A stretch of 64,000 bases of DNA, from NCBI RefSeq assembly GCF_947648125.1, contig NZ_CANSMR010000006.1:268590-332589 (forward strand), given 5' to 3'. This document shows positions 8,463-53,575 of this stretch, one piece after another. The notes below the pieces were generated by a model. The model was not told the DNA's origin. It ran no database searches and was given only the letters and a program-made list of their open reading frames with translations. Numbering within the stretch: the first letter of the stretch is position 1; each line of letters starts with the position of its first letter. Both the position numbers and the translations under genes were made by a program. The DNA comes from an uncultured Bradyrhizobium sp. GTDB taxonomy: Bacteria > Pseudomonadota > Alphaproteobacteria > Rhizobiales > Xanthobacteraceae.

Positions 8463-9341
8463 TCATGCATTGAAGCAGCGCTCAAAGAAGTTCACGAATG
8501 CGCGGGCCTTGGCGGTCGCGGCGCGCCCGGTCGGCAGCACGGTCCAGAGATCGAGCGCGGGCAGGCTCCATTCCGGCAGGACCGCACGCACCGTGCCCGA
8601 TTTCAGTTCGGGGCTGAACATCCACTCCGAGGCGATCGCGAGCCCGGCATCGGCGAGCACCGCAGCCCGGACGCCTTCGGCCGCGGTCACCCGCAACCGG
8701 CTCCGCACCGTGACGGCCAGTTCGGTGCTCTCGCGCTGAAAGGACCACACGCTGCCCTCGCGGAGATAAACGACGGCCTGGTGCCGGCTCAGTTCGCTCG
8801 GCGTGGCAGGCGTGCCGGCGCGGTCGAAATACGCCGGCGTACCCAGCACGAGGCGCCTACATCTTGCGACACGGCGTGCGGTCAGCGTCGAATCCGTCAT
8901 CTTGCCCATCCGCAGTGCGACGTCGATACCTTCCTGCACAAGATCGATCTGGCGGTCGTCGAGCACGACCTCGAGCTCCAGCTCCGGATGCTGCGCGAGA
9001 AACTTCGGCAGCATCGGAATGAGATGGATCCGGGCGAAGGTGACGGCGGCGCAGATCCGCAATCGGCCCTTGAGACCCGCTCCGGCGCCGCGCGCCGCGA
9101 TCTCGGCCTCGGCCGCCTCTTCAAGCGCGCGCCTGGCGCGCTCGAGATAGCCGAGCCCCGCTTCGGTCGGGGTGAGCCCATGGGTCGAGCGCGTGAGCAG
9201 CTTGACCCCGAGAAATTCTTCGAGCTGCGCGACCGATTTCGAGACCGCCGGCTGGCCGACCCGGAGCTGTCGCGCCGCTCCGGAGAACGAGCCGGTCTCG
9301 ACCACCCGCACGAATGTCTCCATCGCCGCCAAGCGATCCAT
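8463..9341 (-). CDS. LysR-family transcriptional regulator
   Basis: A 292-residue LysR regulator. The N-terminal winged helix-turn-helix reads METFVRVVETGSFSGAARQL then VGQPAVSKSVAQLEEFLG (about residues 7-45), followed by LLTRSTHGLTPTEAG and a periplasmic-binding-type effector domain from about residue 90. Length is standard. The downstream same-strand neighbour is the peroxiredoxin-like gene. The effector cannot be deduced from sequence. Confidence 0.9.
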   Translation of the reverse strand: MDRLAAMETFVRVVETGSFSGAARQLRVGQPAVSKSVAQLEEFLGVKLLTRSTHGLTPTEAGLGYLERARRALEEAAEAEIAARGAGAGLKGRLRICAAVTFARIHLIPMLPKFLAQHPELELEVVLDDRQIDLVQEGIDVALRMGKMTDSTLTARRVARCRRLVLGTPAYFDRAGTPATPSELSRHQAVVYLREGSVWSFQRESTELAVTVRSRLRVTAAEGVRAAVLADAGLAIASEWMFSPELKSGTVRAVLPEWSLPALDLWTVLPTGRAATAKARAFVNFFERCFNA

Positions 9342-9436: not shown

Positions 9437-10363
9437 CTACGACTTGCGATGCCTGGCATTAACCGCGATCGCGGCGGCGGCGGTGCGGTTCTCGACGCCG
9501 AGTTTGGCGTAGATCTGCTCGAGGTGCTTGTCGACGGTGCGTGGGCTTAAGCCCAGGATCTGCGCGATGTCGCGGTTGGTCTTGCCCTTGGAGAGCCAGG
9601 ACAGCACCTCGCCCTCGCGGGTGGTCAGGCCGAGCTCGCTGGAGAACTCGGCCGGCATGTCGCCGCTGGTGTCCTTGGCCAGCCGCAGCAGGAATTCGTT
9701 GGGCCCGAGCTTGCCCATGAATTGCAGCCGAAGCTGCTCGCTGCCGGGGAATGTCGCTACCGTCGCGGTCTTCGCCCCGGCCTTGCCTTTCTGCGCCTGG
9801 TCAAGCCATTGCGGCATCGGCTCGGGCAGCACGAAATTGTCGGCGGCGTCGGCGAGCGTATCCGAGAGGAGTCTCTGCGCCTGTGGCGTTGCCCATAGCA
9901 GCGTGCCCGAGCTGTTGACCGCGAGCAGATAGCGGCCGGAGACGTCGAGCGCGGCGCGGGCACTCTGCGTCATCCGCGCGTTGGCGAGATGGACCCGGAT
10001 GCGCGCCAGCATTTCCTCGATCACGATCGGCTTGGTGACATAGTCGACGCCGCCGGCCTCCAGCCCACGCACGATGTGCTCGGTTTCGGCCAGCCCCGTC
10101 ATGAAGATGATCGGCACGCCGTCGAGCCCGGCGTCGCGCTTCAGCCGCCTGCAGGTCTCGAAGCCGTCCATGCCGGGCATCACGGCATCGAGCAGCACGA
10201 TATCGGGGGTGATCTGGTCGACGATGCGCATCGCGGAGGCGCCGTCGAGCGCGACCATCACGGTCATGCCGGCGCCGTCGAGCGCGTCGGTCAGCAGGCG
10301 CAACGTCTCGGGCGAGTCGTCGACGACAAGGGCAACGTCGCGCTTTCGCTGTTCAATGGTCAT
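9437..10363 (-). CDS. Response regulator, REC plus LuxR-type DNA-binding domain
   Basis: A 308-residue response regulator. The receiver domain (about residues 10-130) has the acidic pair D15/D16, phosphoacceptor D59 (DIVLLDAVMPGMDG) and K111 (YVTKP). A middle segment of about 110 residues may be PAS-like. A LuxR helix-turn-helix (LTTREGEVLSWLSKGKTNRDIAQILGLSPRTVDKHLEQIYAKLG) fills the C-terminus. Its start overlaps the end of the upstream sensor kinase by 11 bases, so the two are a cognate pair. The divergent urtA-fmdB operon is the most likely target. Confidence 0.92.
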   Translation of the reverse strand: MTIEQRKRDVALVVDDSPETLRLLTDALDGAGMTVMVALDGASAMRIVDQITPDIVLLDAVMPGMDGFETCRRLKRDAGLDGVPIIFMTGLAETEHIVRGLEAGGVDYVTKPIVIEEMLARIRVHLANARMTQSARAALDVSGRYLLAVNSSGTLLWATPQAQRLLSDTLADAADNFVLPEPMPQWLDQAQKGKAGAKTATVATFPGSEQLRLQFMGKLGPNEFLLRLAKDTSGDMPAEFSSELGLTTREGEVLSWLSKGKTNRDIAQILGLSPRTVDKHLEQIYAKLGVENRTAAAAIAVNARHRKS

Positions 10364-13300
10364 AGCTGTGCAATGTTTTCAACGTCGCCATATATTGATC
10401 AAGATCGAACCGGTCGATTAGCGTGCGCATCTGGCCGACGAAATCGGCATGTTCGGGACATTCGTTGCCGATCTCGTCGAGCTTGAGCTGGATCGCCCTG
10501 ATATAGCCGAGCTGGCCGAGGCTGATCAGCTCTTCGACATATTTCACCGGTGGGCGCGAACCCGTGTCGGGCTTCCATTGCGGGGGTGGAATCTGCTCGG
10601 CCTCATATTGCCACTCGATCTTGAGCAGCTGGCGGATACTCTCGAGTAGCCGCGGGATGTCGATTGGCTTCATCAAATAGCCGTCGTGGAACGGTTGCGC
10701 CAGCGGCGAGCCATGGGCTTCCAGCGCGCTGGCCGAGATCATCAGGATTCGTGCCTGGTGATGGCCTTCGGAGCGCAAGGTTTCAGCAACCGTCCAGCCG
10801 TCCATGCCCGCCATCGAGATATCGAGCAGGAACATGTCCGGCCGGCAATGCTGCGCGAGGGCAAGGCAGCCCGGCCCGTCCGGTGCGCTGAGCAGGATGA
10901 AGCCGAGCGGCGCCAGGATCTCGCGCAGCAGGTCGCGATGCGTCGGGTCATCGTCGGTGATCAGGATGGTCTTGCGCGGGCCGTGATAGCCGTAAACCGG
11001 AGCGTCGACCGGCGCATCGCGGCGTGGATTGGTGACCTCGGAGAGCAACAGCTTGACGCGGAAGGTGCTGCCCGTGCCGACCGTGCTCAGGACCTTGATG
11101 TCGCCGCCCATCACGCCCGCGAGCAGGCGGCTGATGGTCAGGCCAAGCCCGGTGCCGGTCTGCGGCTGAGTGACGCCGAGCGCGCCGCGCTCGAAGGGCG
11201 CGAAGATCCGCTCGAGATCGTCGGGCTGGATGCCCGGCCCGGTATCGATCACCTCGAACTCGGCGACAGGGCTGCGGTAATGCACGATGAATTGCACCTT
11301 GCCGGTCTGCGTGAACTTGATCGCGTTCGAGAGCAGGTTGATCAGGATCTGCCGCAGCCGCTTCTCGTCGGCATAGACCACGAGGGGCAGCACGGCCGGC
11401 CGCCTGAACACGAAGTCGATGCCCTTGGCCGCGGCCTGCAGGCGGAACATGCCGACCAGCTGCTCAAGGAAGTCGTTTAGCCGCACCTCGTCGCGCGACA
11501 GATAGAGACGGCCGGCCTCGATCTTGGAGATGTCGAGGATGCCGTCGATCAGTCCCGACAAATGGTCCGCGCTCCGACGGACCACGCGCACTTGCCCGCG
11601 TGGCCGCACCTGGAGGCTGTCGTCCTGCTCCAGCAGCTGCGCGTAGCCGGAGATCGCGTTCAGCGGCGAGCGGAGCTCGTGGCTGAGACCGACGACGTAT
11701 CGGCTCTTGGCGAGATTGGCGGCCTCGGCGACTTCCTTGGCACGCTGCAATTCGGCATCGGTGCGCTTGTGGGCGTCAATCTCCTGGATCAGCAGCGTGG
11801 TCTGGCGGCGTGTTTCGTCTTCCGCGGCGCGCCGGCTCTGTTGCGCCAGCACGAACAGCCAGGCGACGACGCCGATGATCAGGGTCAGCGCAAAGAACAC
11901 CTTCCACAGCACGTCGGCCAGCAATTCGTTGGCATGCACGGCCGCGGTGGTCTGCAGGTAGATCAGGCCGAGCACCAGCGCCACGAGGCCGGCCGAGACC
12001 GCGAACACGCCGAGGTAATGGCCGAGCTGCGAGTTGATGCGGGCGTAGATCGGCTGCGGCATCACTTTGCCCAAGGCGTCCGACACTTGCGCGCCGATCC
12101 GCCCATGCGGCTTGCAGAGGTCGTGGCAGCGTGCGTCGAGCGAGCAGCACAATGAGCAGATCGGGCCGGCATAGGCCGGGCAGGCGGCCATGTCCTCGGG
12201 CTCGAACGCATGCTCGCAAATACAGCACTGGATCGATTCAATGTTCTGCCAGCTCCGCTTCGGCTTGCGGGCGATGTAGTACTTGCCGTCGGTCGCCCAG
12301 GCAATCAGGGGAGCCGTGATGAAGGCGACCGCAAGCGCGACGAAGGCGGACAGCGCTTTCGCGGTCGGGCCGAACAGGCCGTAGAACGCGCTGATCGAGA
12401 CCACAGTCGCGATCGTCATCGCGCCGACGCCGACCGGGTTGATGTCGCAGAGATGGGCGCGCTTGAACTCGATGTGCTGCGGCCGCAAGCCGAGCGGCTT
12501 GTTGATGACGAGATCGGCGACCAGCGCACCGACCCAGGCGATCGCGACATTCGAGTAGAGCGCCAGCGTCTGCTCCAGCGCCTTGTAGACGCCGATCTCC
12601 ATCAGCAGCAGCGCGACGACGACATTAAACACCAGCCACACCACGCGGCCGGGATGCGAATGGGTGAGGCGGGAGAAGAAGTTCGACCAGGCGATCGAGC
12701 CGGCATAGGCATTGGTGACGTTGATCTTGACCTGCGACAGGATCACGAAGGTCCCGGTCAGCGCCATTGCGAGATCCGGCTGCGACAGCACGTAGCGGAA
12801 GGCTTCGAGATACATGTTGGCCGGCTCGGCCGCGTGCTCCGCCGAGACGCCGTGGCTGAGCGCGAAGAAGGCCAGGAACGAGCCGGCCAGCAGCTTGAGC
12901 GCGCCGAGCACGATCCAGCCGGGACCGGCAGACAGCAACGCGATCCACCAGGCCTTTCGCGAGGTGCGGCGGTCGCGCGGCAGGAAGCGCAGGAAGTCGA
13001 CCTGCTCGCCGATCTGCGCGACCAGCGCGAACACGACGGAGGCCGCCGTGCCGAACAGCAGGAGATCGAGGTTGCCCGCGGGGTCGCCGTGCTCGCCGGC
13101 GAACTTGCGCCACTCGGTGAACGAATGCGGATTGGCCCAGGCGATCGCCGCGAACGGCATGATGTGGAGGATCACCCACAGCGGCTGGGTCCAGAGCTGG
13201 AAGCGGCTGATCAGCGTGATGCCGTAGACGACGAGCGGAATGATCACGACCGCGCTGATCAGGTAGCCGATCGGCCGCGGGATGCCGAAGCACATGTCCA

Positions 13301-13721
13301 GCGCGCTGGCCAGGATCACGGCCTCGATCGCGAAGAAGATGAAGGTGAAGGAGGCGTAGATCAGCGAGGTGATGGTCGAGCCGATATAGCCGAAGCCGGC
13401 GCCGCGGGTCAGCAGGTCGATGTCGATGCCGCTTTTCGCGGCATGGTAGGCGATCGGCAGTCCGCAGAGGAAGATGATGACGCTGACGACCAGGATCGCG
13501 GCCGAGGCGTTGATCGCGCCGTAGTTCAGCGTGATGGTGCCGCCGATCGCTTCCAGTGCGAGGAAGGAGATCGCGCCGAGCGCGGTGTTGGCGACGCGGG
13601 CGGCGGACCAGCGCCGCGCGCTCTTGGCGGTGAAGCGCAGCGCGTAGTCTTCCAGCGTCTGGTTGGCGACCCATTGATTGTATTGGCGCCTGACGCGGTC
13701 TATCCGCTGCCGCCCTGCCAC
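10353..13721 (-). CDS. NCS1 permease-hybrid histidine kinase fusion sensor
   Basis: A 1122-residue membrane sensor. Residues about 25-480 form a NCS1-type (purine/cytosine/allantoin permease family) transporter with some twelve hydrophobic segments. Residues 499-536 hold a cluster of cysteines (C499, C500, C502, C514, C522, C525, C526, C532, C536, plus H504, H533, H539). Two more membrane segments (about 567-590 and 604-627) and a short coiled stretch follow. The kinase has the H box with H681 (SHELRSPLNAI), N box (N799), DTGPG (826-830) and GTGLGL (856-861). A receiver domain follows with D967 and K1018. The start is GTG at 13721. It is co-transcribed with the LuxR-type regulator and divergent from the urea/amide transporter. 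It probably senses amides, urea or related N compounds, either by binding or transport; that is inferred. Confidence 0.92.
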   Translation of the reverse strand: MAGRQRIDRVRRQYNQWVANQTLEDYALRFTAKSARRWSAARVANTALGAISFLALEAIGGTITLNYGAINASAAILVVSVIIFLCGLPIAYHAAKSGIDIDLLTRGAGFGYIGSTITSLIYASFTFIFFAIEAVILASALDMCFGIPRPIGYLISAVVIIPLVVYGITLISRFQLWTQPLWVILHIMPFAAIAWANPHSFTEWRKFAGEHGDPAGNLDLLLFGTAASVVFALVAQIGEQVDFLRFLPRDRRTSRKAWWIALLSAGPGWIVLGALKLLAGSFLAFFALSHGVSAEHAAEPANMYLEAFRYVLSQPDLAMALTGTFVILSQVKINVTNAYAGSIAWSNFFSRLTHSHPGRVVWLVFNVVVALLLMEIGVYKALEQTLALYSNVAIAWVGALVADLVINKPLGLRPQHIEFKRAHLCDINPVGVGAMTIATVVSISAFYGLFGPTAKALSAFVALAVAFITAPLIAWATDGKYYIARKPKRSWQNIESIQCCICEHAFEPEDMAACPAYAGPICSLCCSLDARCHDLCKPHGRIGAQVSDALGKVMPQPIYARINSQLGHYLGVFAVSAGLVALVLGLIYLQTTAAVHANELLADVLWKVFFALTLIIGVVAWLFVLAQQSRRAAEDETRRQTTLLIQEIDAHKRTDAELQRAKEVAEAANLAKSRYVVGLSHELRSPLNAISGYAQLLEQDDSLQVRPRGQVRVVRRSADHLSGLIDGILDISKIEAGRLYLSRDEVRLNDFLEQLVGMFRLQAAAKGIDFVFRRPAVLPLVVYADEKRLRQILINLLSNAIKFTQTGKVQFIVHYRSPVAEFEVIDTGPGIQPDDLERIFAPFERGALGVTQPQTGTGLGLTISRLLAGVMGGDIKVLSTVGTGSTFRVKLLLSEVTNPRRDAPVDAPVYGYHGPRKTILITDDDPTHRDLLREILAPLGFILLSAPDGPGCLALAQHCRPDMFLLDISMAGMDGWTVAETLRSEGHHQARILMISASALEAHGSPLAQPFHDGYLMKPIDIPRLLESIRQLLKIEWQYEAEQIPPPQWKPDTGSRPPVKYVEELISLGQLGYIRAIQLKLDEIGNECPEHADFVGQMRTLIDRFDLDQYMATLKTLHSYDH

Positions 13722-13796: not shown

Positions 13797-13834
13797 GTGC
13801 AGTATACGCGATCTCACGTATCAGTGCGCTGCAC
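13797..13834. promoter_or_regulatory. Dyads in the sensor/urtA divergent promoter
   Basis: The 168-base gap between the sensor kinase and urtA has GTGCA (13797-13801) paired with TGCAC (13830-13834), and inside them ATACG (13804-13808) with CGTAT (13817-13821). The location suits an operator for the response regulator. I found no convincing -24/-12 sigma-54 element by eye. Confidence 0.3.
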
Positions 13835-15273: not shown

Positions 15274-16200
15274 ATGTTCGGCGACTATTCGATCAGCGAT
15301 CTCGGCGCCATCCTTGCGATGCAGGGATTTGCCGGGCTCATCCTGTTCTCCGTCTATGTGCTGATGGCGCTGGGGCTTGCCGTCATCTTCGGCCAGATGG
15401 GCGTCATCAACATGGCCCATGGCGAGTTCATGATCCTGGGCGCCTACGTCACCTGGATGACGTCGAACGCCGTGCAGCACGTCGCGCCCTGGCTGTTCCC
15501 CGGCTACTTCTTCATCGCGATGATCCTGGCGTTCATCGCCTCCGGCGCGCTCGGCATGCTGGTCGAATGGGCGCTGATACGCCATCTCTACAAGCGTCCG
15601 CTCGATACGCTGCTGGCGACCTGGGGGCTCAGCCTGATCCTGCAGCAGGCCTATCGCTCGATCTTCGGCGCGCGCGAGGTTGGCGTCGAGCTGCCGGACT
15701 GGATGATGGGATCCTGGCAGGCCACCGACTCGATCCAGATCCCGATCAACGGCATGTTCGTGATGGCGCTGACCATGCTGATCACGATCGCGGTCGCCTA
15801 CGTGCTGTTCTGGTCGAGCTGGGGCAAGCAGGTGCGCGCCGTGGTGCAGAACCGCGTGATGGCGGGCGCCGTCGGCATCAATACCGAGAAGGTCGATCGC
15901 TACACCTTTGGTCTGGGTTGCGGCATCGCCGGGATCGCGGGCTCGGCCTTCACCATGATCGGCTCGACCGGGCCGACCGCGGGCCAGCTCTATATCGTCG
16001 ATACCTTCCTGGTCGTCGTGTTCGGCGGCGCAGCCTCGCTGTTCGGTACCATCGCCTCCGCCTTCTCGATCTCGCAGACCCAGTCGACGCTGGAGTTCTT
16101 TCTGTCGGGATCGATGGCGAAGGTGATCACGCTGCTCACGATCGTCGCGATCCTGATGGTGCGTCCGCAGGGGCTCTTCGCGCTCAAGGTCCGCAAATAA
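15274..16200 (+). CDS. urtB: Amide/urea ABC transporter permease (UrtB type)
   Basis: A 308-residue LivH/UrtB-type inner-membrane permease with about eight membrane segments. Family motifs include LMALGLAVIFGQMGVINMAHGEFMILGAY, RPLDTLLATWGLSLILQQ and VVFGGAASLFGTIASAF. The ATG at 15274 was chosen because GGAGG lies eight bases upstream; the in-frame ATGs at 15259 and upstream have no site. It forms the transmembrane channel with UrtC. Confidence 0.92.
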   Translation: MFGDYSISDLGAILAMQGFAGLILFSVYVLMALGLAVIFGQMGVINMAHGEFMILGAYVTWMTSNAVQHVAPWLFPGYFFIAMILAFIASGALGMLVEWALIRHLYKRPLDTLLATWGLSLILQQAYRSIFGAREVGVELPDWMMGSWQATDSIQIPINGMFVMALTMLITIAVAYVLFWSSWGKQVRAVVQNRVMAGAVGINTEKVDRYTFGLGCGIAGIAGSAFTMIGSTGPTAGQLYIVDTFLVVVFGGAASLFGTIASAFSISQTQSTLEFFLSGSMAKVITLLTIVAILMVRPQGLFALKVRK

Positions 16201-16217: not shown

Positions 16218-17354
16218 ATGGTCATCAACTCGCGCTTCTTCAATCGCTCCGAACTGCTCGGCTTCCTTGCGCTCGCGGTGCTGCTGCTTGTCATCCTGCC
16301 GCTGTCGCTGGATATCTTCCGCCTCAACCTGGTCGCCAAATATCTGACCTACGCCTTCGTCGGCATCGGGCTCGTGCTGTGCTGGGGCTATGGCGGCATC
16401 CTCAGCCTGGGGCAGGGCGTGTTCTTCGGCCTCGGCGGCTACTGCATGGCGATGTACCTCAAGCTCGAGGCATCCTCGGTCGCGAACACCAAGATCCAGT
16501 CGACGCCGGGCATCCCGGACTTCATGGACTGGAATCAGATCACGCAGCTGCCGCTGTTCTGGAAGCCGTTCCATAGTTTTCCGGTCACGGTGCTGGCGAT
16601 CTTGCTGGTTCCCGCCTTCTTCGCGCTGATCATCGGCGCTGCGATGTTCAAGCGCCGGGTCGGCGGCGTGTACTTTGCAATCATCACGCAAGCGATCGCC
16701 GCGATCCTCACCATCCTGATCGTGGGGCAGCAGGGCTACACCGGTGGCATCAACGGCATCACGGATCTGCGCACGCTGCACGGCTGGGACATCCGTACCG
16801 ATCACGCCAAGTTCATTCTGTATTTCGTCGAGGTTGTGCTGCTGTTCGGATGCATCGTTGCCGCGCAATTCATCCGGCTGACAAAACTCGGGCGCATCCT
16901 GGTGGCGATGAGGGAGCAGGAGGATCGCGTGCGCTTCTCCGGTTACAGCGTCGCCAATTTCAAGATCTTCGCGTTCTGTGCCGCGGCGGTGTTCGCTGCG
17001 ATCGGCGGCGCCATGTTCACGCTCGAGGTCGGCTTCATGTCGCCGTCCTTTGTCGGCATCGTGCCGTCGATCGAGATGGTGATCTACACGGCGGTCGGCG
17101 GCCGGATGTCGATCTTCGGCGCGGTCTGGGGCGCGTTGCTGGTCAATTTCGCCAAGACCAGCCTCTCGGAATCCTTCCCGCAGCTCTGGCTGTTCGGCCT
17201 CGGCGCGCTGTTCATCGCGGTTGTGCTGGCCTTCCCGAACGGGCTCTCCGGCATCTGGGCTGATCATATCCAGCCCCGCATCGATCGCCTGTTCGCATCA
17301 CGCAAATCGAAATCGGCGGCCGGCCTGATCGCCGACGGCGCACCGGCCGAGTGA
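16218..17354 (+). CDS. urtC: Amide/urea ABC transporter permease (UrtC type)
   Basis: A 378-residue LivM/UrtC-type permease with about ten hydrophobic segments. It contains the UrtC hallmarks CWGYGGILSLGQGVFFGLGGYCMAMYLKLE, PDFMDWNQITQLPLFWKPF and QQGYTGGINGITDLRTLHGWDI. The last two are typical of urea/amide rather than amino-acid transporters. The ATG at 16218 follows a purine-rich AGGCAGG site. It is separated from urtB by 17 bases and from urtD by 12. Confidence 0.93.
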   Translation: MVINSRFFNRSELLGFLALAVLLLVILPLSLDIFRLNLVAKYLTYAFVGIGLVLCWGYGGILSLGQGVFFGLGGYCMAMYLKLEASSVANTKIQSTPGIPDFMDWNQITQLPLFWKPFHSFPVTVLAILLVPAFFALIIGAAMFKRRVGGVYFAIITQAIAAILTILIVGQQGYTGGINGITDLRTLHGWDIRTDHAKFILYFVEVVLLFGCIVAAQFIRLTKLGRILVAMREQEDRVRFSGYSVANFKIFAFCAAAVFAAIGGAMFTLEVGFMSPSFVGIVPSIEMVIYTAVGGRMSIFGAVWGALLVNFAKTSLSESFPQLWLFGLGALFIAVVLAFPNGLSGIWADHIQPRIDRLFASRKSKSAAGLIADGAPAE

Positions 17355-17366
17355 GGAGGGACCATC

Positions 17367-18122
17367 ATGCTCGTCGGCAATCAGCCCAAGGACTTCCTGC
17401 TCGCGGTCTCCGGACTCACCGTGTCCTTTGACGGCTTCAGGGCCGTCAATGATCTCTCCTTCTATGTCGAGGAGAACGAGATCCGCGTCATTATCGGCCC
17501 GAACGGCGCCGGCAAGACGACCGTGCTCGACCTGATCTGCGGCAAGACCCGGGCCACGTCTGGCTCGATCCAGTTCCGTGGCCAGGAGCTGACCCGGCTG
17601 CGCGAGAACGAGATCGTGCAGGCCGGCGTCGGCCGCAAGTTTCAGACGCCGTCGGTGTTCGAGGACCTCACCGTGTTCGAGAACCTCGAAATCTCCTACC
17701 CGCGCGGCCGCACCGTGTTCGGCTCGCTGACCTTCCAGCGCGACGCCGCGGTCAAGCAGCGGGTCGAGGAGGTCGCCGAGATGATCTTCCTGAAGGACCG
17801 GCTCAATACCTATGCCGACCAGCTCAGCCACGGCCAGAAGCAGTGGCTCGAGATCGGCATGCTGCTGATCCAGGACCCGGACCTCTTGATGCTGGACGAG
17901 CCGGTCGCCGGCATGAGTGTGTCCGAGCGCGCCAAGACTGCCGAGCTGCTCAACCGCATCATCAAGGACCGTTCGGTGCTGGTGATCGAGCACGACATGA
18001 AGTTCGTCGAGGACATCGCGCACAAGGTGACGGTGCTGCACCAAGGCCAGATCCTGTCCGAGGGAACGATGGAGCACGTCAAGAACGATCCAAAAGTGAT
18101 CGAAGTTTACCTGGGCCATTAA
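17367..18122 (+). CDS. urtD: Amide/urea ABC transporter ATP-binding protein (UrtD type)
   Basis: A 251-residue ABC ATPase. Walker A is GPNGAGKTT (near residue 50), the signature segment is LSHGQKQWLEIGMLL, which is the distinctive UrtD form, and Walker B is DLLMLDEP. The H-loop reads VIEHDMKF. The ATG is preceded by GGAGGGACC. It powers import together with UrtE. Confidence 0.94.
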   Translation: MLVGNQPKDFLLAVSGLTVSFDGFRAVNDLSFYVEENEIRVIIGPNGAGKTTVLDLICGKTRATSGSIQFRGQELTRLRENEIVQAGVGRKFQTPSVFEDLTVFENLEISYPRGRTVFGSLTFQRDAAVKQRVEEVAEMIFLKDRLNTYADQLSHGQKQWLEIGMLLIQDPDLLMLDEPVAGMSVSERAKTAELLNRIIKDRSVLVIEHDMKFVEDIAHKVTVLHQGQILSEGTMEHVKNDPKVIEVYLGH

Positions 18123-18133
18123 GGAACACCGCG

Positions 18134-18823
18134 ATGCTGGCAATCAATGATCTTCACGTCGCCTACGGCCAGAGCGAGGTGCTGCACGGCCTCAATGTCT
18201 CCGTCGCGCCCAACGAGATCGTCGCGATCATGGGCCGCAATGGCATGGGCAAGACCACGCTGATGAAGTCGCTGATGGGCATCCTGCCGGCCAAGAGCGG
18301 CAAGGTGACCATGGACGGCACCGAGCTTGGCGCGATGAAGAGCTACGAGCGGGTGGCGAAGGGGCTCGCTTACGTGCCGCAGGGCCGCATGATCTTCTCC
18401 ACCATGACGGTGAAGGAGAACATCGAGACCGGGCTCGTGGTGTCAGGCGGCTCCGAAGTGCCCGGCGACATCTATGAGCTGTTTCCGGTGCTGCTCGAGA
18501 TGAAGGGCCGCCGCGGCGGCAATCTCTCGGGCGGACAGCAGCAGCAGCTCGCGATCGCCCGCGCGCTCGCCACCAAGCCGAAGGTGTTGCTGCTGGACGA
18601 GCCGACCGAAGGCATCCAGCCGTCGATCATCAAGGATATGGCCCGCACCCTGAAGCGGATCCGCGACGAGCGGGGGCTGTCGATCGTCGTCTCCGAGCAG
18701 GTGCTGAGCTTCGCGCTCGACATCGCCGACCGCGTGCTCGTCATCGAGAACGGCGAGATCGTCCGCGACGATCCGCGCGCCAGCGTCGATGCCGCGCAGA
18801 TATCCAAATACTTGTCTGTCTAA
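18134..18823 (+). CDS. urtE: Amide/urea ABC transporter ATP-binding protein (UrtE type)
   Basis: A 229-residue ABC ATPase of LivF/UrtE type. Walker A is GRNGMGKTTL (about residues 37-46), the signature is [15 protein letters not shown], and Walker B is [15 protein letters not shown]. The start ATG at 18134 is 11 bases after the urtD stop. It is followed after two bases by a rhizobial-type palindromic element and then formamidase. Confidence 0.94.
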   Translation: MLAINDLHVAYGQSEVLHGLNVSVAPNEIVAIMGRNGMGKTTLMKSLMGILPAKSGKVTMDGTELGAMKSYERVAKGLAYVPQGRMIFSTMTVKENIETGLVVSGGSEVPGDIYELFPVLLEMKGRRGGNLSGGQQQQLAIARALATKPKVLLLDEPTEGIQPSIIKDMARTLKRIRDERGLSIVVSEQVLSFALDIADRVLVIENGEIVRDDPRASVDAAQISKYLSV

Positions 18824-18910: not shown

Positions 18911-20140
18911 ATGCCTGATACACTGATCAAGGTCGATCTCAGCAAGTCGGCCTATGAAAACGACAAGATTCACAACCGCTGGCATCCCGAGGTTCCGATC
19001 GTCGAGTGGGTCAGCCCCGGCGACGACTTCATCATCGAGACCGTCGACTGGACCGGCGGCTTCATCAAGAACAACGATTCCGCCGACGACGTGCGTGACA
19101 TCGATCTGTCGATCGTGCACTTCCTCTCGGGTCCGATCGGCGTCAAGGGCGCCGAGCCCGGCGATCTCCTCGTCGTCGACTTGCTCGACGTCGGTCCGCT
19201 GAAGGAGAGCCTGTGGGGCTTCAACGGCTTCTTCTCCAAGCAGAATGGCGGCGGCTTCCTCACCGACCATTTCCCGCTGGCGCAGAAGTCGATCTGGGAC
19301 ATCAAGGGCCTCTACACCTCGTCGCGTCACATCCCGGGCGTGAATTTCGCCGGCCTGATCCATCCCGGCCTGATCGGCTGTCTGCCCGATGCCAAGATGC
19401 TGGCGGCCTGGAACAAGCGCGAAGCCGAGCTGATCGCGACCAACCCGACCCGTGTGCCGGGTCTCGCCAATCCGCCGTTCGCGCCGACCGCACATGCCGG
19501 CCAGGCCAAGGGCGACGTCAAGGCCAAGATCGGCCTTGAGGGCGCTCGCACTGTGCCGCCGCGCGAGCATGGCGGCAATTGCGACATCAAGGATCTTTCG
19601 CGCGGTTCGAAGATCTATTTCCCGGTCTATGTACCGGGCGGCGGGCTTTCGATGGGCGACCTGCATTTCAGCCAGGGCGACGGCGAGATCACCTTCTGCG
19701 GCGCCATTGAGATGGCCGGCTGGCTGCACATCAAGGTCGACGTCATCAAGGACGGCGTCTCGAAATACGGCATCAAGAACCCCGTGTTCAAGCCGTCGCC
19801 GATCACGCCGAACTACAAGGACTATCTGATCTTCGAGGGTATCTCGGTCGACGAGGCCGGCAAGCAGCACTATCTCGACGTCCACATCGCCTATCGCCAG
19901 GCTTGCCTGAACGCGATCGAGTATCTGAAGAAGTTCGGCTACTCCGGCGCCCAGGCCTATTCGATCCTCGGCACCGCGCCATGTCAGGGCCATATCTCCG
20001 GCGTGGTTGACGTGCCCAACGCCTGCGCCACACTGTGGCTGCCGACGGAGATCTTCGACTTCGACGTGATGCCGTCGTCGGCGGGACCGATCAAGCATAT
20101 CAAGGGCGACGTGCAGATGCCGATCTCTCCCGACAAGTGA
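18911..20140 (+). CDS. fmdA: Formamidase (acetamidase/formamidase family)
   Basis: A 409-residue FmdA-family enzyme that hydrolyses formamide, and usually other short amides more weakly, to formate and ammonia in the cytoplasm. The start MPDTLIKVDLSKSAYENDKIHNRWHP is typical, as are NRWHPEVPIVEWVSPGDDF, the HPGLIGCLPD and GNCDIKDLSRGSKIYFPVYVPGG segments and MGDLHFSQGDGEITFCGAIE. A GGGGAG site precedes the ATG. It directly follows the five transporter genes and precedes fmdB, the order seen in the fmd system of Methylophilus. Confidence 0.95.
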   Translation: MPDTLIKVDLSKSAYENDKIHNRWHPEVPIVEWVSPGDDFIIETVDWTGGFIKNNDSADDVRDIDLSIVHFLSGPIGVKGAEPGDLLVVDLLDVGPLKESLWGFNGFFSKQNGGGFLTDHFPLAQKSIWDIKGLYTSSRHIPGVNFAGLIHPGLIGCLPDAKMLAAWNKREAELIATNPTRVPGLANPPFAPTAHAGQAKGDVKAKIGLEGARTVPPREHGGNCDIKDLSRGSKIYFPVYVPGGGLSMGDLHFSQGDGEITFCGAIEMAGWLHIKVDVIKDGVSKYGIKNPVFKPSPITPNYKDYLIFEGISVDEAGKQHYLDVHIAYRQACLNAIEYLKKFGYSGAQAYSILGTAPCQGHISGVVDVPNACATLWLPTEIFDFDVMPSSAGPIKHIKGDVQMPISPDK

Positions 20141-20236
20141 TCCGTGATCCCTGCGCGAAGGATGCGGGACGGCTGCGTATTGGCCGCCCCGCATCCGCCG
20201 CCAGACGTCACACACGACTGCGCAAGGATTAAGGAA

Positions 20237-20584
20237 ATGCCGATCTACGAATATCTCTGCAACGACTGCGGCCCGTTCACCGACATGCGGCCGATGGCGG
20301 AATGCGACCTGCCGCAGGACTGCCCGCAATGCGAGACGACGTCGCCGCGGGTGATTCTGACCGCGCCGGCGTTCTTCTGCATGCCGTCGGATAAACGCAA
20401 GGCGTACGCCACGAACGAGCAGAGCCGGCACGCGCCGAAGACGCTCGATCAGTACAAGGCCGCGCACGGCCCGGGCTGCGGCTGTTGCTCTACGGACAAG
20501 AAGAAGCCGGCACGGCTGATGACCAAGACCAAGAGCGGCGCCAAGGGCTTTCCGACCGCGCGTCCCTGGATGATCAGTCACTGA
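20237..20584 (+). CDS. fmdB: FmdB-family zinc-ribbon regulatory protein
   Basis: A 115-residue protein that starts MPIYEYLCNDCGPF. C8/C11 and C29/C32 form the CxxC...CxxC zinc ribbon of the FmdB/putative regulatory family. A second cysteine group, CGCC, lies near residue 80. FmdB was proposed to regulate formamidase expression in Methylophilus, but the mechanism is not known. The ATG at 20237 has an AAGGAAA site. It is 96 bases after fmdA and is the last gene of the operon. Confidence 0.9.
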   Translation: MPIYEYLCNDCGPFTDMRPMAECDLPQDCPQCETTSPRVILTAPAFFCMPSDKRKAYATNEQSRHAPKTLDQYKAAHGPGCGCCSTDKKKPARLMTKTKSGAKGFPTARPWMISH

Positions 20585-45668: not shown

Positions 45669-46823
45669 ATGTCGAACCCTACCCAAGCGACCTCCGCTCC
45701 GTGGCGGATAGGCGTCCTGTTCTCGCGAACCGGCTTCATGTCGGTGATCGAGGAGACCCAGTATCAGGGCACGCAGCTTGCGATCGAGGAAGTGAACGAG
45801 GCGGGCGGGGTCTGCGGCCGTGAGCTGGTTCCCGTCGCCTACGACCCTGGCTCGGATTCGGCCGCCTATGGCCACTACGCCAAACGGTTGATGGTGGAGG
45901 ATCAGGTCAGCACTATATTCGGCTGCTACACCTCGTCGAGCCGCAAGGCGGTGCTGCCGGTGGTCGAACGGCTAAACGGCCTGCTGTGGTACCCGACGCT
46001 CTATGAGGGTTTCGAGGCGTCGCCGAACGTCATCTACACCGGCGCCTCGCCGAATCAAAACAGCCTCGCGCTGTGTCGCTATTTGATGGATACGTTCGGA
46101 ACACGATTCTATTTCGTGGGTTCGGACTACATCTATCCGCGCGAGTCCAACCGGGTGATGCGCGAACTGCTGAAGAGCAATGGCGGCTCGGTCGTGGGTG
46201 AGCGCTACGTTAATGTCTACGCGCGCTGGCAGGACTTTGTCCCGATCATCCAGGATATCAAGCGGGTCAGGCCCGACGTGATCTTCTCGACCGTCGTGGG
46301 GGAGGGCACGGTCTTTCTCTATCAGGCCTACGCGAATGTCGGGCTCGATCCAAAGCAAGTGCCGATCGCCAGCCTCACCACGACGGAAGCCGAAATCGCC
46401 GCCATGGGCTTCGATGTCGGCGAAGGACACGTCACCGCGGCGTCCTATTTCCAGGGTGTCGAGGGCAGTGCCAACAACGCGTTTGTGCAGCGTTTCAAGA
46501 AACGGTTCGGCGCCGACATCTCCACCAACATGTGCGCCGAGGCATCCTATTTCCAGCTGCATCTGTTTGCGAAGGCGCTCGAGCAGGTCAATTCGCTCGA
46601 CACCGAAGTGCTCCGCTCGATGGTGTTCGGCACCAGCTTTGATGCACCGCAAGGTGCCGTCACCGTCAACCCGATGTCGGGTCATACCGATCTGTGGACA
46701 CGCATCGGACGCGCCAACCGCCAGGGACAGTTCGATGTGGTCAGCCAGTCGAAGGAGCCGGTGCATGCGGATCCGTTCCTGATCGGGTATGGTCGTGCAA
46801 CGCAAACAGGAAGCGTCCAATGA
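45669..46823 (+). CDS. amiC: AmiC-like cytosolic amide sensor (negative regulator of amidase)
   Basis: A 384-residue protein with the same periplasmic-binding fold as UrtA/FmdD (RIGVLFSRTGFMSVIEETQYQGTQLAIEEVNEAGGVCGRELVPV, CYTSSSRKAVLPVVERLNGLLWYPTLYEG) but without a signal peptide; the ATG at 45669 starts MSNPTQATSAPWRIGV. In Pseudomonas, AmiC holds the antiterminator AmiR inactive until an amide binds. The overlap with the next gene, an AmiR-like ANTAR protein (ATGA), strongly supports that role. Confidence 0.92.
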   Translation: MSNPTQATSAPWRIGVLFSRTGFMSVIEETQYQGTQLAIEEVNEAGGVCGRELVPVAYDPGSDSAAYGHYAKRLMVEDQVSTIFGCYTSSSRKAVLPVVERLNGLLWYPTLYEGFEASPNVIYTGASPNQNSLALCRYLMDTFGTRFYFVGSDYIYPRESNRVMRELLKSNGGSVVGERYVNVYARWQDFVPIIQDIKRVRPDVIFSTVVGEGTVFLYQAYANVGLDPKQVPIASLTTTEAEIAAMGFDVGEGHVTAASYFQGVEGSANNAFVQRFKKRFGADISTNMCAEASYFQLHLFAKALEQVNSLDTEVLRSMVFGTSFDAPQGAVTVNPMSGHTDLWTRIGRANRQGQFDVVSQSKEPVHADPFLIGYGRATQTGSVQ

Positions 46824-47461
46824 ACGAGCAGTCGCGTAAGCCGTCGCTGAGCCGAGACGTCGGCGGACGCAAGACCATGGTTCAGGAACTTGCCGATCTG
46901 TCGGCTGTCGTGGTCGCGCCGGTCGACGATCAGGTCGGCATGCTGTTGCGCGAATTGCAGCGGTTCAGGATGCGGGTGCGTCAGGTCTGGCCGATGCCGG
47001 AGAGCGTGCCGGCCGATGCCGACGTGGTGTACTGCGAATATTCGCCTGATCTGGCGCGGCGCCTGCCGTGGATCCCCGGCGATGCGCGTTCGGCGCTGGT
47101 CGTGATCCTGCCGGCGACGGAAGCCGTTCACGCCGATGCGCTCTGTCATGCAACGCCCAACGCCGTTCTGCCGCGGCCGTTCACGCAGAATGCCGTGTTG
47201 TCCAGCCTCGTGCTGGCGCGCAGCCAGTTCAGCTACGAACGGCGGCTGCGCAGCAAGATCGAGAAGCTTGACGACAATCTGCGCTCGATGCGCACGGTGG
47301 AACGCGCCAAGGCGATCCTGATGGCGACGCGGCAGATGCCGGAAACCGAAGCCTATGGCTTCATTAGACGACAGGCGATGGATCGTCGCGTGTCGGCAAG
47401 CGCGGTCGCTGCGGCGATTGTTGACTCGTTCGAACTGCTTGGCTACGATCATCAACAGTAA
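46820..47461 (+). CDS. amiR: AmiR-like ANTAR-domain antiterminator
   Basis: A 213-residue protein. The N-terminal 150 residues form a receiver-like domain without a usual phosphoacceptor motif (LSAVVVAPVDDQVGMLLRELQRF). A coiled segment (SKIEKLDDNLRSMRTVERAK) leads to the C-terminal ANTAR RNA-binding domain (AKAILMATRQMPETEAYGFIRRQAMDRRVSASAVAAAIVDSFELL). AmiR binds leader RNA and prevents termination upstream of the amidase genes. Its start overlaps amiC. The leader right after its stop holds two hairpins and a terminator. Confidence 0.92.
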   Translation: MNEQSRKPSLSRDVGGRKTMVQELADLSAVVVAPVDDQVGMLLRELQRFRMRVRQVWPMPESVPADADVVYCEYSPDLARRLPWIPGDARSALVVILPATEAVHADALCHATPNAVLPRPFTQNAVLSSLVLARSQFSYERRLRSKIEKLDDNLRSMRTVERAKAILMATRQMPETEAYGFIRRQAMDRRVSASAVAAAIVDSFELLGYDHQQ

Positions 47462-47496
47462 GCCCCAATAGCGGGGCCGGCGGCGACAGCGCCGCC
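47462..47496 (+). promoter_or_regulatory. Tandem hairpins, candidate ANTAR target in the leader
   Basis: Hairpin 1: GCCCC-AATAGC-GGGGC (47462-47477). Hairpin 2: GGCGGC-GACAGC-GCCGCC (47479-47496), both with six-base loops. The loops share A-Y-A-G-C, so an A and a G are spaced as in the conserved A1/G4 of ANTAR-bound hexaloops, although the register in hairpin 2 requires an open G-C pair. They begin one base after the amiR stop and lie just upstream of an intrinsic terminator. Confidence 0.6.
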
Positions 47497-47514
47497 TTCG
47501 ACACAACCGGCAAC

Positions 47515-47567
47515 AAAGCCCTCCCAATGCTCGCGTAAGCGCGCATCGGGAGGGCTTTTTGTTTTTT
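47515..47567 (+). terminator. Strong intrinsic terminator between amiR and the amide transporter operon
   Basis: AAAGCCCTCCC (47515-47525) pairs with GGGAGGGCTTT (47548-47558), an inner stem (ATGCTCGC/GCGCGCAT, one mismatch) extends it, and a T-rich tract to 47567 follows. It lies 22 bases before the start of the next gene, so the downstream operon needs read-through or its own promoter after it. Together with AmiR this suggests antitermination control. Confidence 0.85.
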
Positions 47568-47588
47568 CAGTCCTGAAGGGAGCTAGGG

Positions 47589-48839
47589 ATGAGCATTTCA
47601 CGGCGGACTTTGCTGAGGAATACCGCGGCGCTTGGCGCATTTGCCGGCGCCGGACTGCCGCATATCTGGATCAAGAACGCCGACCTCGCTTACGCCGCGG
47701 GCGGCGAGATCAAGGTCGGTGTGTTGTTCTCGCTGACGGGAACGACTGCGATCATCGAGGAATCGCTCAACAAGGCGACGCTGCTTGCGATCGAGGAAAT
47801 CAACGCCGCGGGCGGCATCAAGGGCAGCAAGATCGTGCCGATCGTCGAGGATCCTGCGTCGGATCCGGCAACGTTCTCGGAGAAGGCCCGCAAGCTCGTC
47901 GTCGGCGACAAATGCGTGAGCGTGTTCGGCTCCTACACCTCGGCGAGCCGCAAGGCGGTGCTTCCGGTCTTCGAGCGGCAGAACAATCTCTATTGGTATC
48001 CGACGCTCTATGAGGGCCGCGAGTGCTCCAAGAACGTCATCTACACCGGCGCGGTGCCGAACCAGCAGCAGGACGAGTTCGTGCCGTGGCTAGTCAAGAA
48101 GTTCGGCAAGAAGTTCTATCTGATCGGCTCCAACTACATCTATCCGAAGGAAGAGAACAACTACTGCAAAAAGCTGCTCGAGAAGCTCGGCGGCGAGGTC
48201 GTGGCGGAAGAATATGTGCCGCTCGGCCATTCCGAATTCTCTTCCGTCATCAACAAGATCCGCTCGACGCAGCCGAACGTGATCTTCTCCACCGTGGTCG
48301 GCGATTCCGTGGTCGCACTGCATCGTCAGTACAAGGCGGCCGGTCTCGATCCCGAGAAGATGCCGATGGCGAGCCTGACGACGTCGGAGAACGAGGTCGC
48401 GGCGATGGGCGGAGAGGCGGCTGCCGGTCACTTCACCTCGGCGCCGTACTTCATGGTGCACAAGTCGCCTGAGAACGAGAAATTCGTCGAGGCCTACAAG
48501 AAGCGCTGGGGCGCCGACAAGGTGACGCATTTCGTCTCGGAGGCCTGCTACTTCCAGACCTATCTGTTCAAGCAGGCGGTCGAGAAGCTTGCGACCAGCG
48601 ACCTCACGCCGCCGAACATCCGCGATGCGGTCAAGGGCCAGGAAGTGATCGCGCCGCAGGGCAAGGTGCGGATCGAGCCGGAGAATTTGCACACCTGGCT
48701 GTGGCCGAAGATCGCGCAGGCGAAGTCGAACGGCCAGTTCGAGATTCTCGTCGAGGCCAAGGATTGGCTGAAGCCGGTGCCCTATGCGGCCTATCCCGGG
48801 CAGTCCTGCACCGAGAAGGGCCTGGTCGAGAAGAGCTGA
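47589..48839 (+). CDS. Amide/urea ABC transporter substrate-binding protein (UrtA type, second copy)
   Basis: A 416-residue binding protein with a twin-arginine-like signal (MSISRRTLLRNTAALGAFAGAG). Mature part: IKVGVLFSLTGTTAIIEESLNKATLLAIEEINAAGG, SYTSASRKAVLPVFERQNNLYWYPTLYEGRECSKNVIYTGAVPNQQ. It is closer in its YWYPTLYEG region to the AmiC-like protein than to the first UrtA at 13890. GAAGGGAG lies before the ATG. It heads the amidase operon, so short aliphatic amides are the probable ligands. Confidence 0.93.
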   Translation: MSISRRTLLRNTAALGAFAGAGLPHIWIKNADLAYAAGGEIKVGVLFSLTGTTAIIEESLNKATLLAIEEINAAGGIKGSKIVPIVEDPASDPATFSEKARKLVVGDKCVSVFGSYTSASRKAVLPVFERQNNLYWYPTLYEGRECSKNVIYTGAVPNQQQDEFVPWLVKKFGKKFYLIGSNYIYPKEENNYCKKLLEKLGGEVVAEEYVPLGHSEFSSVINKIRSTQPNVIFSTVVGDSVVALHRQYKAAGLDPEKMPMASLTTSENEVAAMGGEAAAGHFTSAPYFMVHKSPENEKFVEAYKKRWGADKVTHFVSEACYFQTYLFKQAVEKLATSDLTPPNIRDAVKGQEVIAPQGKVRIEPENLHTWLWPKIAQAKSNGQFEILVEAKDWLKPVPYAAYPGQSCTEKGLVEKS

Positions 48840-48964
48840 CGGGGGCTGACGACGGCCGTCGGCGTGCGGCGCCGGCGGCCGGCTTCCCGCAACGAAACTG
48901 GCCTCTCGCACACATGCGAGGGACGCAGGACGCACCAAACCGAATATCGAAAGCGGATCCCGAC

Positions 48965-49834
48965 GTGGACCAATTCATCGAACAAATCGTCACAGGCCTC
49001 AGCATCGGGTCGATCCTGCTGCTGGTGGCGCTCGGCCTGTCGATCATCTACGGCTCGATGGGCATCATCAATCTCGCCCATGGCGAGTTCGTGATGCTTG
49101 GCGCTTACGCGGCCTGGGTGTTCCACACCTATCTCGGGCTCGGCCTGCTGGCGAGCCTCGTTCCGATCTTCCTCGTGGTTGCCGCGTTCGGCTGGGTCAT
49201 CGAGCGCTACGTCCTGAGCCTGCTCAACAACCGGCCGCTCGATACGATCCTCGCCACCTGGGGCGTTGGCATCATGCTGCAGCAGGCGGTGCGACTGATG
49301 GTCGGCAGCGAGCTGCGCTATGTGCAGCTGCCGCCGGCGCTGTCCGACAGCATGGACGTGTTCGGCATCCCGATATCGTCGTATCGGGTGTTCCTGTTCG
49401 TCGTGTCGATCGCGCTGTTCGGGGCGACCTGGTTGCTCATGAACCGCACCACGGTCGGGATGAAATTGCGCGCCATCATCCAGGACCGCTCGGTCGCCGC
49501 CTCGTTCGGCATCAACGCCAAGCGGGTCTATGCATTGACCTTCGCCTATGGCGCGGGGCTTGCCGGACTTGCCGGCGCGCTGGTGTCGCCGCTCAAGAGC
49601 GTGTCGCCCGATATGGGCACCGGCTACGTGGTCGACGCCTTCATGGTGGTCGTGCTCGGCGGCGTGCAGAGCCTCGCCGGCACGGTGGCGAGCGCCTTCA
49701 TCCTCGGCGAGCTCTCCGGCGGCATCGCCTTCCTGCAGAACGACACGGTGGCCAAGACGATCGTGCTGCTCGCCATCGTCGTGCTCATCCGTTTCCGCCC
49801 CGAGGGGCTTTTCACCGCACGCGTGCGGGCCTGA
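48965..49834 (+). CDS. Amide/urea ABC transporter permease (UrtB type, second copy)
   Basis: A 289-residue LivH/UrtB-type permease: GSILLLVALGLSIIYGSMGIINLAHGEFVMLGAY, NNRPLDTILATWGVGIMLQQAVRLM and VVVLGGVQSLAGTVASAFILGE. I place the start at GTG 48965 (MDQFIEQIVTGLSIGS), which aligns with the family N-terminus; the ATG at 48914 would add 17 residues. The gap behind the binding-protein gene holds a 10-bp palindrome (48851-48860) and a small CTCGCA/TGCGAG hairpin (48905-48920). Confidence 0.9.
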   Translation: MDQFIEQIVTGLSIGSILLLVALGLSIIYGSMGIINLAHGEFVMLGAYAAWVFHTYLGLGLLASLVPIFLVVAAFGWVIERYVLSLLNNRPLDTILATWGVGIMLQQAVRLMVGSELRYVQLPPALSDSMDVFGIPISSYRVFLFVVSIALFGATWLLMNRTTVGMKLRAIIQDRSVAASFGINAKRVYALTFAYGAGLAGLAGALVSPLKSVSPDMGTGYVVDAFMVVVLGGVQSLAGTVASAFILGELSGGIAFLQNDTVAKTIVLLAIVVLIRFRPEGLFTARVRA

Positions 49835-49850
49835 GACAGATCGCTCATCT

Positions 49851-51739: not shown

Positions 51740-52424
51740 GCTGACCGACGTCGACGCCTTCTATGGCAACAGCCGCGCCCTGCAGGGCATCAACCTGATG
51801 GTCGGCAACGGCGAATTCCTGTCGGTGCTCGGCCGCAACGGCGTCGGCAAGACCACGCTGATGCGCAGCATCCTCGGCCTGATGGACCGGTGCACCGGAC
51901 GTCTGTCGCTCGACGGCGCCGACATCTCGCCATTGCGGACCTATCAGCGCGCCAAGGCGGGCATTGCCTATGTGCCGCAGGGCCGTGGCATCCTGCCGCG
52001 CTTCACCGTGCGGGAGAATTTGACGCTCGGGACCTTCGCGGCGAAATCGGCCAACGGCATCGAGGAATGGGTGCTCGAGCTGTTTCCGGTGCTCAAGGAT
52101 TTTCTCAATCGCTACGGCGGCAATCTCTCCGGCGGTCAGCAGCAGCAACTTGCGATCGCGCGCGCGCTGCTCGCCCAGCCCAAGGTCATCCTGCTGGACG
52201 AGCCGACCGAGGGCATCCAGCCGAATATCGTCGAGCAGATCGAGGACGTGATCGTCAAACTCAATCGTGAGCGCGGCATCACGGTCGTGCTGGTCGAACA
52301 GAATGTCGCGTTCGCGCGGCGCGCGTCTCACCGCTTCGCGCTGCTCGAAAAGGGACGCGTCGTCGCCAAGGGCGCGATCGGTGAACTCACCGATGATCTC
52401 ATCCAGCTGCACATGGCCGTGTAG
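51732..52424 (+). CDS. Amide/urea ABC transporter ATP-binding protein (UrtE type, second copy)
   Basis: A 230-residue ATPase of UrtE type. Walker A is [10 protein letters not shown] (about residues 34-43), the signature is [15 protein letters not shown], and Walker B is [15 protein letters not shown]. It overlaps the preceding ATPase by eight bases and ends 32 bases before amiE, so amidase is most likely co-transcribed with the transporter. Confidence 0.93.
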
Positions 52425-52456
52425 CGGGAATTATCGTTCAGAAAGGGAGTCGAGAC

Positions 52457-53494: not shown

Positions 53495-53575
53495 TTGGAA
53501 AAGCCGAGCTGTGCCGGCGCGATCATTCGCGCCGGTGCGGTTCTGAAACTGTTGCAGCGGGAAACGGGGGTTACC

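Follow-up and report, generated by a model that had tools for sequence, protein, structure and literature searches.

Introduction

In the SLC5/STAC sensor kinases (CbrA, CrbS, RpuS, and PrlS), a carrier domain is fused to a histidine kinase. The type found in Sinorhizobium fredii is a hybrid kinase with a LuxR-type regulator next to it, and RpuS/R controls the carrier MctP (PMC9100948, in the excerpts used here). Transporter-kinase fusions of the SLC5/STAC kind are already known (excerpts of PMC9100948 and PMC13022988), and Ks-Amt5, an Amt-histidine kinase fusion, is named in an excerpt of PMC12918730. In Pseudomonas veronii, the chromosome carries amiE, fmdA, fmdB, and urtABCDE, and formamide uptake has been suggested; the term "histidine kinase" is absent from that paper, and no such sensor is named in the passages used here (PMC13209695).

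Here we describe a related protein encoded in a 64,000-nucleotide stretch of DNA (the window) from an uncultured soil bacterium, Bradyrhizobium sp. (contig NZ_CANSMR010000006.1, positions 268,590 to 332,589). In this protein, an NCS1-type permease half is joined to a hybrid histidine kinase. We consider it likely that the fusion is a transporter-type sensor kinase for urea or a short-chain amide and that it controls the urt and fmd genes via a LuxR-type regulator and a palindrome. Like the SLC5/STAC kinases, as far as the excerpts describe them, the fusion combines a carrier with a histidine kinase and has a LuxR-type regulator alongside. In contrast to them, its carrier is NCS1 rather than SLC5, and it has an eight-cysteine segment and two helices where CbrA has STAC and PAS. 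An earlier reading of the window, made from its letters and open reading frames alone (the sequence-only reading), had likened the fusion to CbrA; the shared class of transporter-kinase fusions stands, and membership with CbrA does not. Like Ks-Amt5, the fusion joins a nitrogen-source carrier to a kinase, but the carrier family of Ks-Amt5 is unrelated and its substrate is ammonium rather than urea or an amide (PMC12918730, in part). The fusion is a new carrier family within a known class of transporter-kinase fusions.

GrtK, which appears in the same excerpt, was considered as a relative and rejected as unrelated, with a PilS-like membrane domain. We found neither an NCS1-kinase fusion nor a urea-sensing kinase in searches of one open-licence library, which does not establish that they are absent from print. 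In the excerpts of PMC6296734 and PMC8399564, NCS1 is mentioned only among other transporters and in a thesis title.

Results

A single gene joins a 12-segment permease to a hybrid histidine kinase

The sequence-only reading had reported one 1,122-residue frame at 10353..13721 with a twelve-segment NCS1 transporter, H681, N799, GTGLGL, and D967. We found this frame on the minus strand, which had been left unsaid, with every one of those residues in its place. The gene and its parts are as follows:

10353..13721, minus strand: transporter-kinase fusion gene P0001, 1,122 codons, GTG start at 13721
12282..13721, minus strand: NCS1-type permease domain, about residues 1 to 480, 12 hydrophobic segments (profile-profile comparison and hydropathy)
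12114..12227, minus strand: eight-cysteine segment, residues 499 to 536 (alignment)
11832..12029, minus strand: two further hydrophobic helices, about residues 565 to 630 (hydropathy), with a coiled coil after them predicted by eye
11511..11708, minus strand: HisKA, phosphoacceptor H681 (Pfam)
11043..11369, minus strand: HATPase_c, N799 and GTGLGL (Pfam)
10635..10967, minus strand: receiver domain, D967 (Pfam)

HisKA, HATPase_c, and Response_reg all scored far over their Pfam cut-offs, and GTGLGL lies at residues 856 to 861. With these domains and their H, N, G, and D residues present, the protein is a hybrid histidine kinase. Hydropathy gave 12 segments through residue 474, with overlapping peaks merged by hand, and two more at residues 569 to 587 and 608 to 626 (helices 13 and 14). 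Neither these helices nor the eight-cysteine segment had been mentioned in the sequence-only reading. We found no PAS domain in the window protein by Pfam scan and no STAC match in the Pfam scan of its linker, the presence of a STAC model in Pfam being unchecked.

A sequencing or assembly error that joined two genes had been raised as a threat to the fusion. We ruled this out by finding the same single frame in many genomes, at 1,113 to 1,282 residues, apart from two short forms of 874 or 885 residues and a Paracoccus form of 873.

Profile comparison places the permease half with NCS1 carriers

Direct searches with the N-terminal half gave no Pfam match of any kind at an E value of ≤10, hence no SLC5 (SSF) domain and no match reaching the PF02133 cut-off, no NCBIfam match at an E value of ≤0.01, and no PDB match by sequence or profile. 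The fusion was also not among the PF02133 matches of its own genome. By profile-profile comparison, 12 fusions matched three PF02133 proteins of the same genome with a probability of 96.6% (E value, 5.5e-10; 359 columns); the probability for UrtB, the negative control, was 0.2%. An earlier comparison of 38 sequences with five had given an E value of 1.9e-28 over 429 columns and was partly circular, as two of the five proteins had been found by similarity to the permease domain itself. The noncircular comparison is weaker, but the conclusion is the same. A PDB search with one of the three PF02133 proteins found Mhp1, and the five-protein profile found both Mhp1 (2JLN) and CodB (7QOA). From these matches, we assign the carrier half to the NCS1 type, though distant from its solved members, as the sequence-only reading had done. 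The likeness to Mhp1 and CodB is a distant kinship by profile; unlike them, the fusion has an attached kinase and no direct PDB match.

We aligned the permease to Mhp1 by chaining alignments by hand. In this alignment, Mhp1 N318, Q121, W117, and Q42, which we take to be its substrate residues, fall on N337, E133, F129, and F53, and only N318 is kept in the fusion. The invariant K332 aligns with either S312 or T313, according to how one gap is placed; both are presumably sodium ligands of Mhp1. We also aligned 96 proteins, comprising 90 fusions and six kinase-less relatives (stand-alones), with L233, which ends at a contig edge, and L269 left out. E133, Q236, E239, Q240, D242, Q330, K332, N334, and N337 are identical in all 90 fusions and all six stand-alones.

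Sensors and stand-alones differ consistently at positions 53 (F/Y), 340 (A/S), 134 (A/G), 171 (I/L), and 120 (L/I or V). F53 (Tyr) and A340 (Ser) separate the sensors from all six stand-alones, and A134 (Gly) does so in 87 of 90 sensors; positions 53, 134, and 340 lie near the aligned Mhp1 site. These differences may reflect a single event and ancestry alone, because the six stand-alones form one clade, being one side of a branch with 97% SH-aLRT in a quick tree. The end branches of the outgroup were 8 to 10 changes per column long, so the root is unsure and either the fusion or the stand-alone may be ancestral. The Klebsiella stand-alone exceeds the PF02133 cut-off (38.1 versus 23.5 bits); the stand-alones of L160, L253, L271, and L159 gave no PF02133 match at an E value of ≤0.001.

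Sensor, regulator, and urea and amide genes recur together

The genes and the putative operator around the fusion are as follows:

8463..9341: LysR-type gene (Pfam)
9437..10363, minus strand: response regulator P0002, REC and GerE/LuxR helix-turn-helix, 308 residues (Pfam), sharing 11 bases with the end of the fusion gene
13805..13820, no strand: putative operator TACGCGATCTCACGTA (TACG-N8-CGTA), the only TACGYNANNTNRCGTA site in the genome
13890..15152, plus strand: urtA, urea ABC transporter substrate-binding protein, ATG at 13890
15274..16200, plus strand: urtB
16311..17354, plus strand: urtC (start uncertain)
17367..18122, plus strand: urtD
18134..18823, plus strand: urtE
18911..20140, plus strand: fmdA, formamidase (NCBIfam NF045496; E value, 1.2e-226)
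20144..20584, plus strand: fmdB-type zinc ribbon protein (NCBIfam; start uncertain)

As the sequence-only reading had noted, the fusion adjoins an amide/urea operon. The start of urtA lies 168 bases from that of the fusion on the opposite strand, and urtBCDE, fmdA, and fmdB follow. On the other side, P0002 has the REC and GerE domains of a LuxR/NarL-type regulator, like response regulators of the NarL/FixJ family. FmdDEF of Methylophilus is counted among the genes for uptake and hydrolysis of short-chain amides and urea. The operon content of the window is common with the short-chain amide and urea genes of P. veronii (PMC13209695, in part).

To count neighbors, we used 78 diverse fusion loci with fetched flanks, leaving out same-genus matches of the phylum survey and G554, which is of the same family. 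A neighbor is a gene anywhere in the fetched flank (about 10 kb upstream at most and 6 to 7 kb downstream) found by tblastn with identity and coverage cut-offs of our own choosing. We found at least one of urtA, fmdA, amiE, urease, and AmiS/UreI in 66 of the 78 loci. The same genes were present in 79 of 80 loci of a Bradyrhizobium set, the best 80 of 299 relatives (85 to 99% identical; nearly all Bradyrhizobium, plus Tardiphaga and a few others), and in 0 of 20 control regions 200 to 300 kb away on the same contigs. By marker, 38 diverse loci had window-type urtA (≥60% identity) and 17 a more distant urtA (55 of 78 with either), 40 had fmdA, 15 amiE, 17 urease, and 2 AmiS/UreI. A LuxR-type regulator directly follows the fusion in 73 of the 78 diverse loci, all except L226, L228, L255, L257, and L259, and in 79 of the 80 Bradyrhizobium-set loci. 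These counts strongly suggest that the sensor, the regulator, and a target operon form one conserved unit.

Elsewhere in the window (45705 to 54907), we observed a second, more distant urtABCDE-like cluster, in which two UrtA-like matches share 37% and 48% identity with the query. Downstream of it are an aliphatic amidase gene (52457 to 53491) and an NCS1 permease gene (53495 to 54907) whose best NCBIfam match, cytosine permease, is under its cut-off. The palindrome described below is not present at this cluster.

A conserved palindrome lies between the sensor and urtA

The intergenic region between the sensor and urtA contains a 16-base palindrome, TACG-N8-CGTA, commonly TACGTCA-N2-TGACGTA. 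Of 60 urtA rows from diverse loci (five of them named plasmid records), 40 have the strict form, in which none of the eight fixed bases deviates, no more than about 350 bases upstream of the match to urtA; the number rises to 46 when one mismatch is allowed. In 400,000 bases of control sequence, there were one strict site and 40 one-mismatch sites, and because one-mismatch sites are common in the control, the relaxed counts are weak. The strict palindrome also lies upstream of 9 of 45 fmdA genes, 2 of 18 amiE genes, and 2 of 6 stand-alones (L253 and L159), and it is found ahead of urtA also at loci where sensor and urtA do not directly diverge (L157, L202, L206, L208, and L210).

The 900 bases upstream of the fusion itself contain the palindrome in 45 of 86 fusion rows. 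In the Bradyrhizobium set, they do so at 79 of 80 loci, and the aligned site is strongly conserved across this set. The 86 rows come from 89, three of which hold only a stand-alone; without one duplicate (L269 is L115), the count is 44 of 85. A stricter form, TACGYNANNTNRCGTA, which we selected with the sites already in view, has a single occurrence in the genome, at 13805 to 13820. The palindrome resembles NarL sites in its 7-2-7 spacing and TAC...GTA ends and differs from them in its core bases. This layout suits a GerE-type regulator, and from the co-occurrence of regulator and palindrome we infer that P0002 may contact it. Taken together, these comparisons support the proposal of the sequence-only reading that the fusion would drive the divergent fmd/urt genes through the adjacent LuxR-type regulator.

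Stand-alone relatives point to urea and short amides

The six kinase-less relatives are 41 to 54% identical to the N-terminal half of the window protein. In Klebsiella pneumoniae, the stand-alone (L154, 7944 to 9551), annotated as a "cytosine permease," closes a urease operon running from ureD to ureG, which makes it a candidate urea carrier. The stand-alone of G918 (L254) likewise closes a urease operon. Three others adjoin a fusion at loci where no full urtA was found. That of L253 is divergent from the fusion and ahead of fmdA-fmdB-amiE, at the place of urtABCDE in other genomes. In L271 (Methylovirgula), the stand-alone comes after the regulator gene, with fmdA-fmdB and amiE present and the urtA match a 21% fragment. 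In L159 (Acinetobacter), it is divergent from the fusion, and none of the marker genes was detected in the flank. Because some stand-alones end a urease operon or take the place of urt beside a fusion, the data point to urea and short amides as their substrates and, by kinship, as the ligand of the sensor.

We found a segment of eight cysteines (C499, C502, C514, C522, C525, C526, C532, and C536; C-x2-C-x11-C-x7-C-x2-CC-x5-C-x3-C) between the permease and the kinase in all 90 aligned fusions. Among the six stand-alones, it is complete in two (L253 and L271), reduced to the CxxC...CxxC core in three, and degenerate in one. Since kinase-less stand-alones carry it too, the segment is part of this permease family, and it likely binds metal. 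The idea that four of the cysteines are confined to kinase fusions was rejected, as none of the eight is missing from the L253 and L271 stand-alones.

The sequence-only reading had asked how common the fusion is. We found relatives of the N-terminal half in 22 of 289 genomes of the class, 20 of them (including that of the window) at ≥57% identity, and in 64 of 398 genomes of the phylum. A close relative in one long frame (E value of <1e-150 in a frame of at least 894 codons) was present in 52 of the 398, the window's own genome included. A search of 369 genomes of the class of G303 with the Klebsiella permease gave matches in 16, and 15 of these had some fusion, judged by frame length. In PLSDB, 529 plasmid records matched the N-terminal half (342 Klebsiella and 78 Sinorhizobium), and nine fusion records from the collection were looked at individually. 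In those of the PLSDB-matched rows shown that give the gene a name, it is mostly "ATP-binding protein" or "response regulator." On Klebsiella plasmid pKP062-1 (L153), the fusion, regulator, urtABCDE, and formamidase genes lie between insertion-sequence genes, near clpK/hsp20.

The N-terminal module is also joined to other outputs. In G784, one gene joins it to PAS-GGDEF-EAL, a cyclic-di-GMP domain pair (L255, 6398 to 10066), and a second joins it to PAS-PAS-HisKA-HATPase-receiver (L259, 9941 to 13756). In G683, it is joined to a receiver-less kinase (L257, 9950 to 12913). Short fusions without a receiver lie beside fmdA and AmiS/UreI in L226, L228, and Paracoccus (L155), and in Paracoccus a separate receiver-kinase protein follows. 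Two fusions occur in each of four genomes (G428, G492, G513, and G636), with one at urt/fmd and the other at urease, as if paralogues had divided the two jobs.

We tentatively propose, at a little under even chances, an undescribed branch of NCS1 for urea and short amides that occurs in two guises. One would be a stand-alone carrier that substitutes for UrtABCDE or closes urease operons. The other would be a portable input module of permease, eight-cysteine segment, and two helices that drives hybrid kinases, plain kinases, a PAS-kinase-receiver chain, and a PAS-GGDEF-EAL protein. In this joint proposal, sensor and carrier differ at F53/Y, A134/G, and A340/S, and K332 lies where Mhp1 presumably has sodium ligands.

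Discussion

We favor an order of events from sensor to LuxR-type regulator to the divergent urt/fmd operon because the conserved neighbors, the adjacent regulator, and the conserved palindrome all fit it. According to this model, the NCS1-type permease at the N terminus, related to a probable carrier of urea and short amides, would bind urea or a short-chain amide, either outside the cell or during passage. The resulting change of conformation would travel via the cytoplasmic eight-cysteine segment, helices 13 and 14, and the coiled coil to the kinase, which would autophosphorylate on H681. Phosphate would then pass, either via the internal receiver D967 or directly, to the neighboring LuxR-type regulator. 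The regulator would bind TACG-N8-CGTA between the divergent genes and activate urtABCDE-fmdAB and probably also its own operon. Gene order and the stand-alone carriers make urea or a short amide the likely ligand.

Several observations weigh against this model. The carrier half of CbrA is reported not to be essential for signal perception (PMC9100948, in part), and for this reason carrier kinship is no proof that the carrier half senses. Twelve of the 78 diverse loci have no marker gene; three of these have less than 1.7 kb upstream, and nine have at least 5 kb (L115, L117, L118, L120, L255, L256, L257, L259, and L263). The swapped-output loci L255, L257, and L259 are among those without a marker gene in the fetched flank, and the Arthrobacter stand-alone (L160) had no link to amide or urea genes with the queries used. 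Tistrella-type loci (L115, the same record as L269; L118; and L120) keep the sensor, regulator, and palindrome with no amide or urea genes nearby. Of the 86 fusion rows, 41 lack the palindrome in the 900 bases upstream, which means either that different sites serve there or that the rule does not hold everywhere. The strict form was found upstream of none of 21 UreA, 17 UreC, and 10 UreD genes; the region before UreA or UreC does not in every case mark the start of a urease operon. One strict site in the window, where 0.12 was expected, is not striking by itself, since 11 of 100 shuffles had at least one. The reversed control pattern occurs four times in the genome versus once for TACGYNANNTNRCGTA; because of this, the site is unique rather than enriched.

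Other explanations divide the same evidence differently. The permease could be a bifunctional transceptor that imports the amide or urea and scales its signal to the flux, which we consider rather unlikely. The nine polar core residues that it shares with the stand-alones would fit transport, but the sensors differ at F53, A340, and (in 87 of 90) A134 near the aligned Mhp1 site, which is compatible with lost transport or maybe with ancestry alone, and the presence of urtA at 55 of 78 loci means that another uptake route usually exists. A lower probability attaches to sensing in the cytoplasm, with the NCS1 half only a membrane anchor or working carrier and the signal read, e.g., by the eight-cysteine segment as a metal or redox sensor, or from nitrogen status. 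The constancy of the eight cysteines in 90 of 90 fusions and the report on the dispensable SLC5 half of CbrA (the same excerpt) speak for it. Against this, the kinase-less L253 and L271 proteins have the same eight cysteines, so the segment is not signaling specific, and the polar core residues are invariant among sensors.

It is improbable that the regulator acts through the palindrome on its own sensor operon only, with urt/fmd under other control, e.g., by NtrC or the nearby LysR-type gene. The palindromes at Tistrella-type loci without amide genes and the LysR-type gene at 8463 to 9341 speak for such autoregulation, and the palindromes before nondivergent urtA and before 9 of 45 fmdA genes speak against it. 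Least probable of all, to a degree that we give it very little weight, is that the ligand is a pyrimidine, purine, hydantoin, or allantoin, as the NCS1 name suggests. NCS1 kinship and the annotation of the Klebsiella relative agree with such a ligand. In contrast, the neighbors are urt, formamidase, amidase, and urease genes; F129 and E133 stand opposite W117 and Q121 of Mhp1, and N337 opposite its N318 (a hand-chained alignment to residues whose roles we assume); and no nucleobase-pathway genes were noticed in the annotated neighborhoods, without a systematic search for them. These data favor urea and short amides over N-heterocycles. The sequence-only reading had named amides, urea, and N-heterocycles together; the neighbors and stand-alones favor the first two, and nothing that we found beyond the NCS1 name supports the third.

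In the work that we found, excerpts included, few transporter-kinase fusions have been studied, namely, the SLC5/STAC proteins and one Amt fusion, and here another large carrier family appears to have been turned into a sensor. The fusion offers a clear candidate ligand, a partner regulator, and a candidate operator whose stricter form occurs once in the host genome. The stand-alone carriers with the same polar core permit a direct test of what makes a carrier a receptor. Relatives of the fusion are widespread, including many Klebsiella plasmid records, and could explain the control of urea and formamide use in many bacteria.

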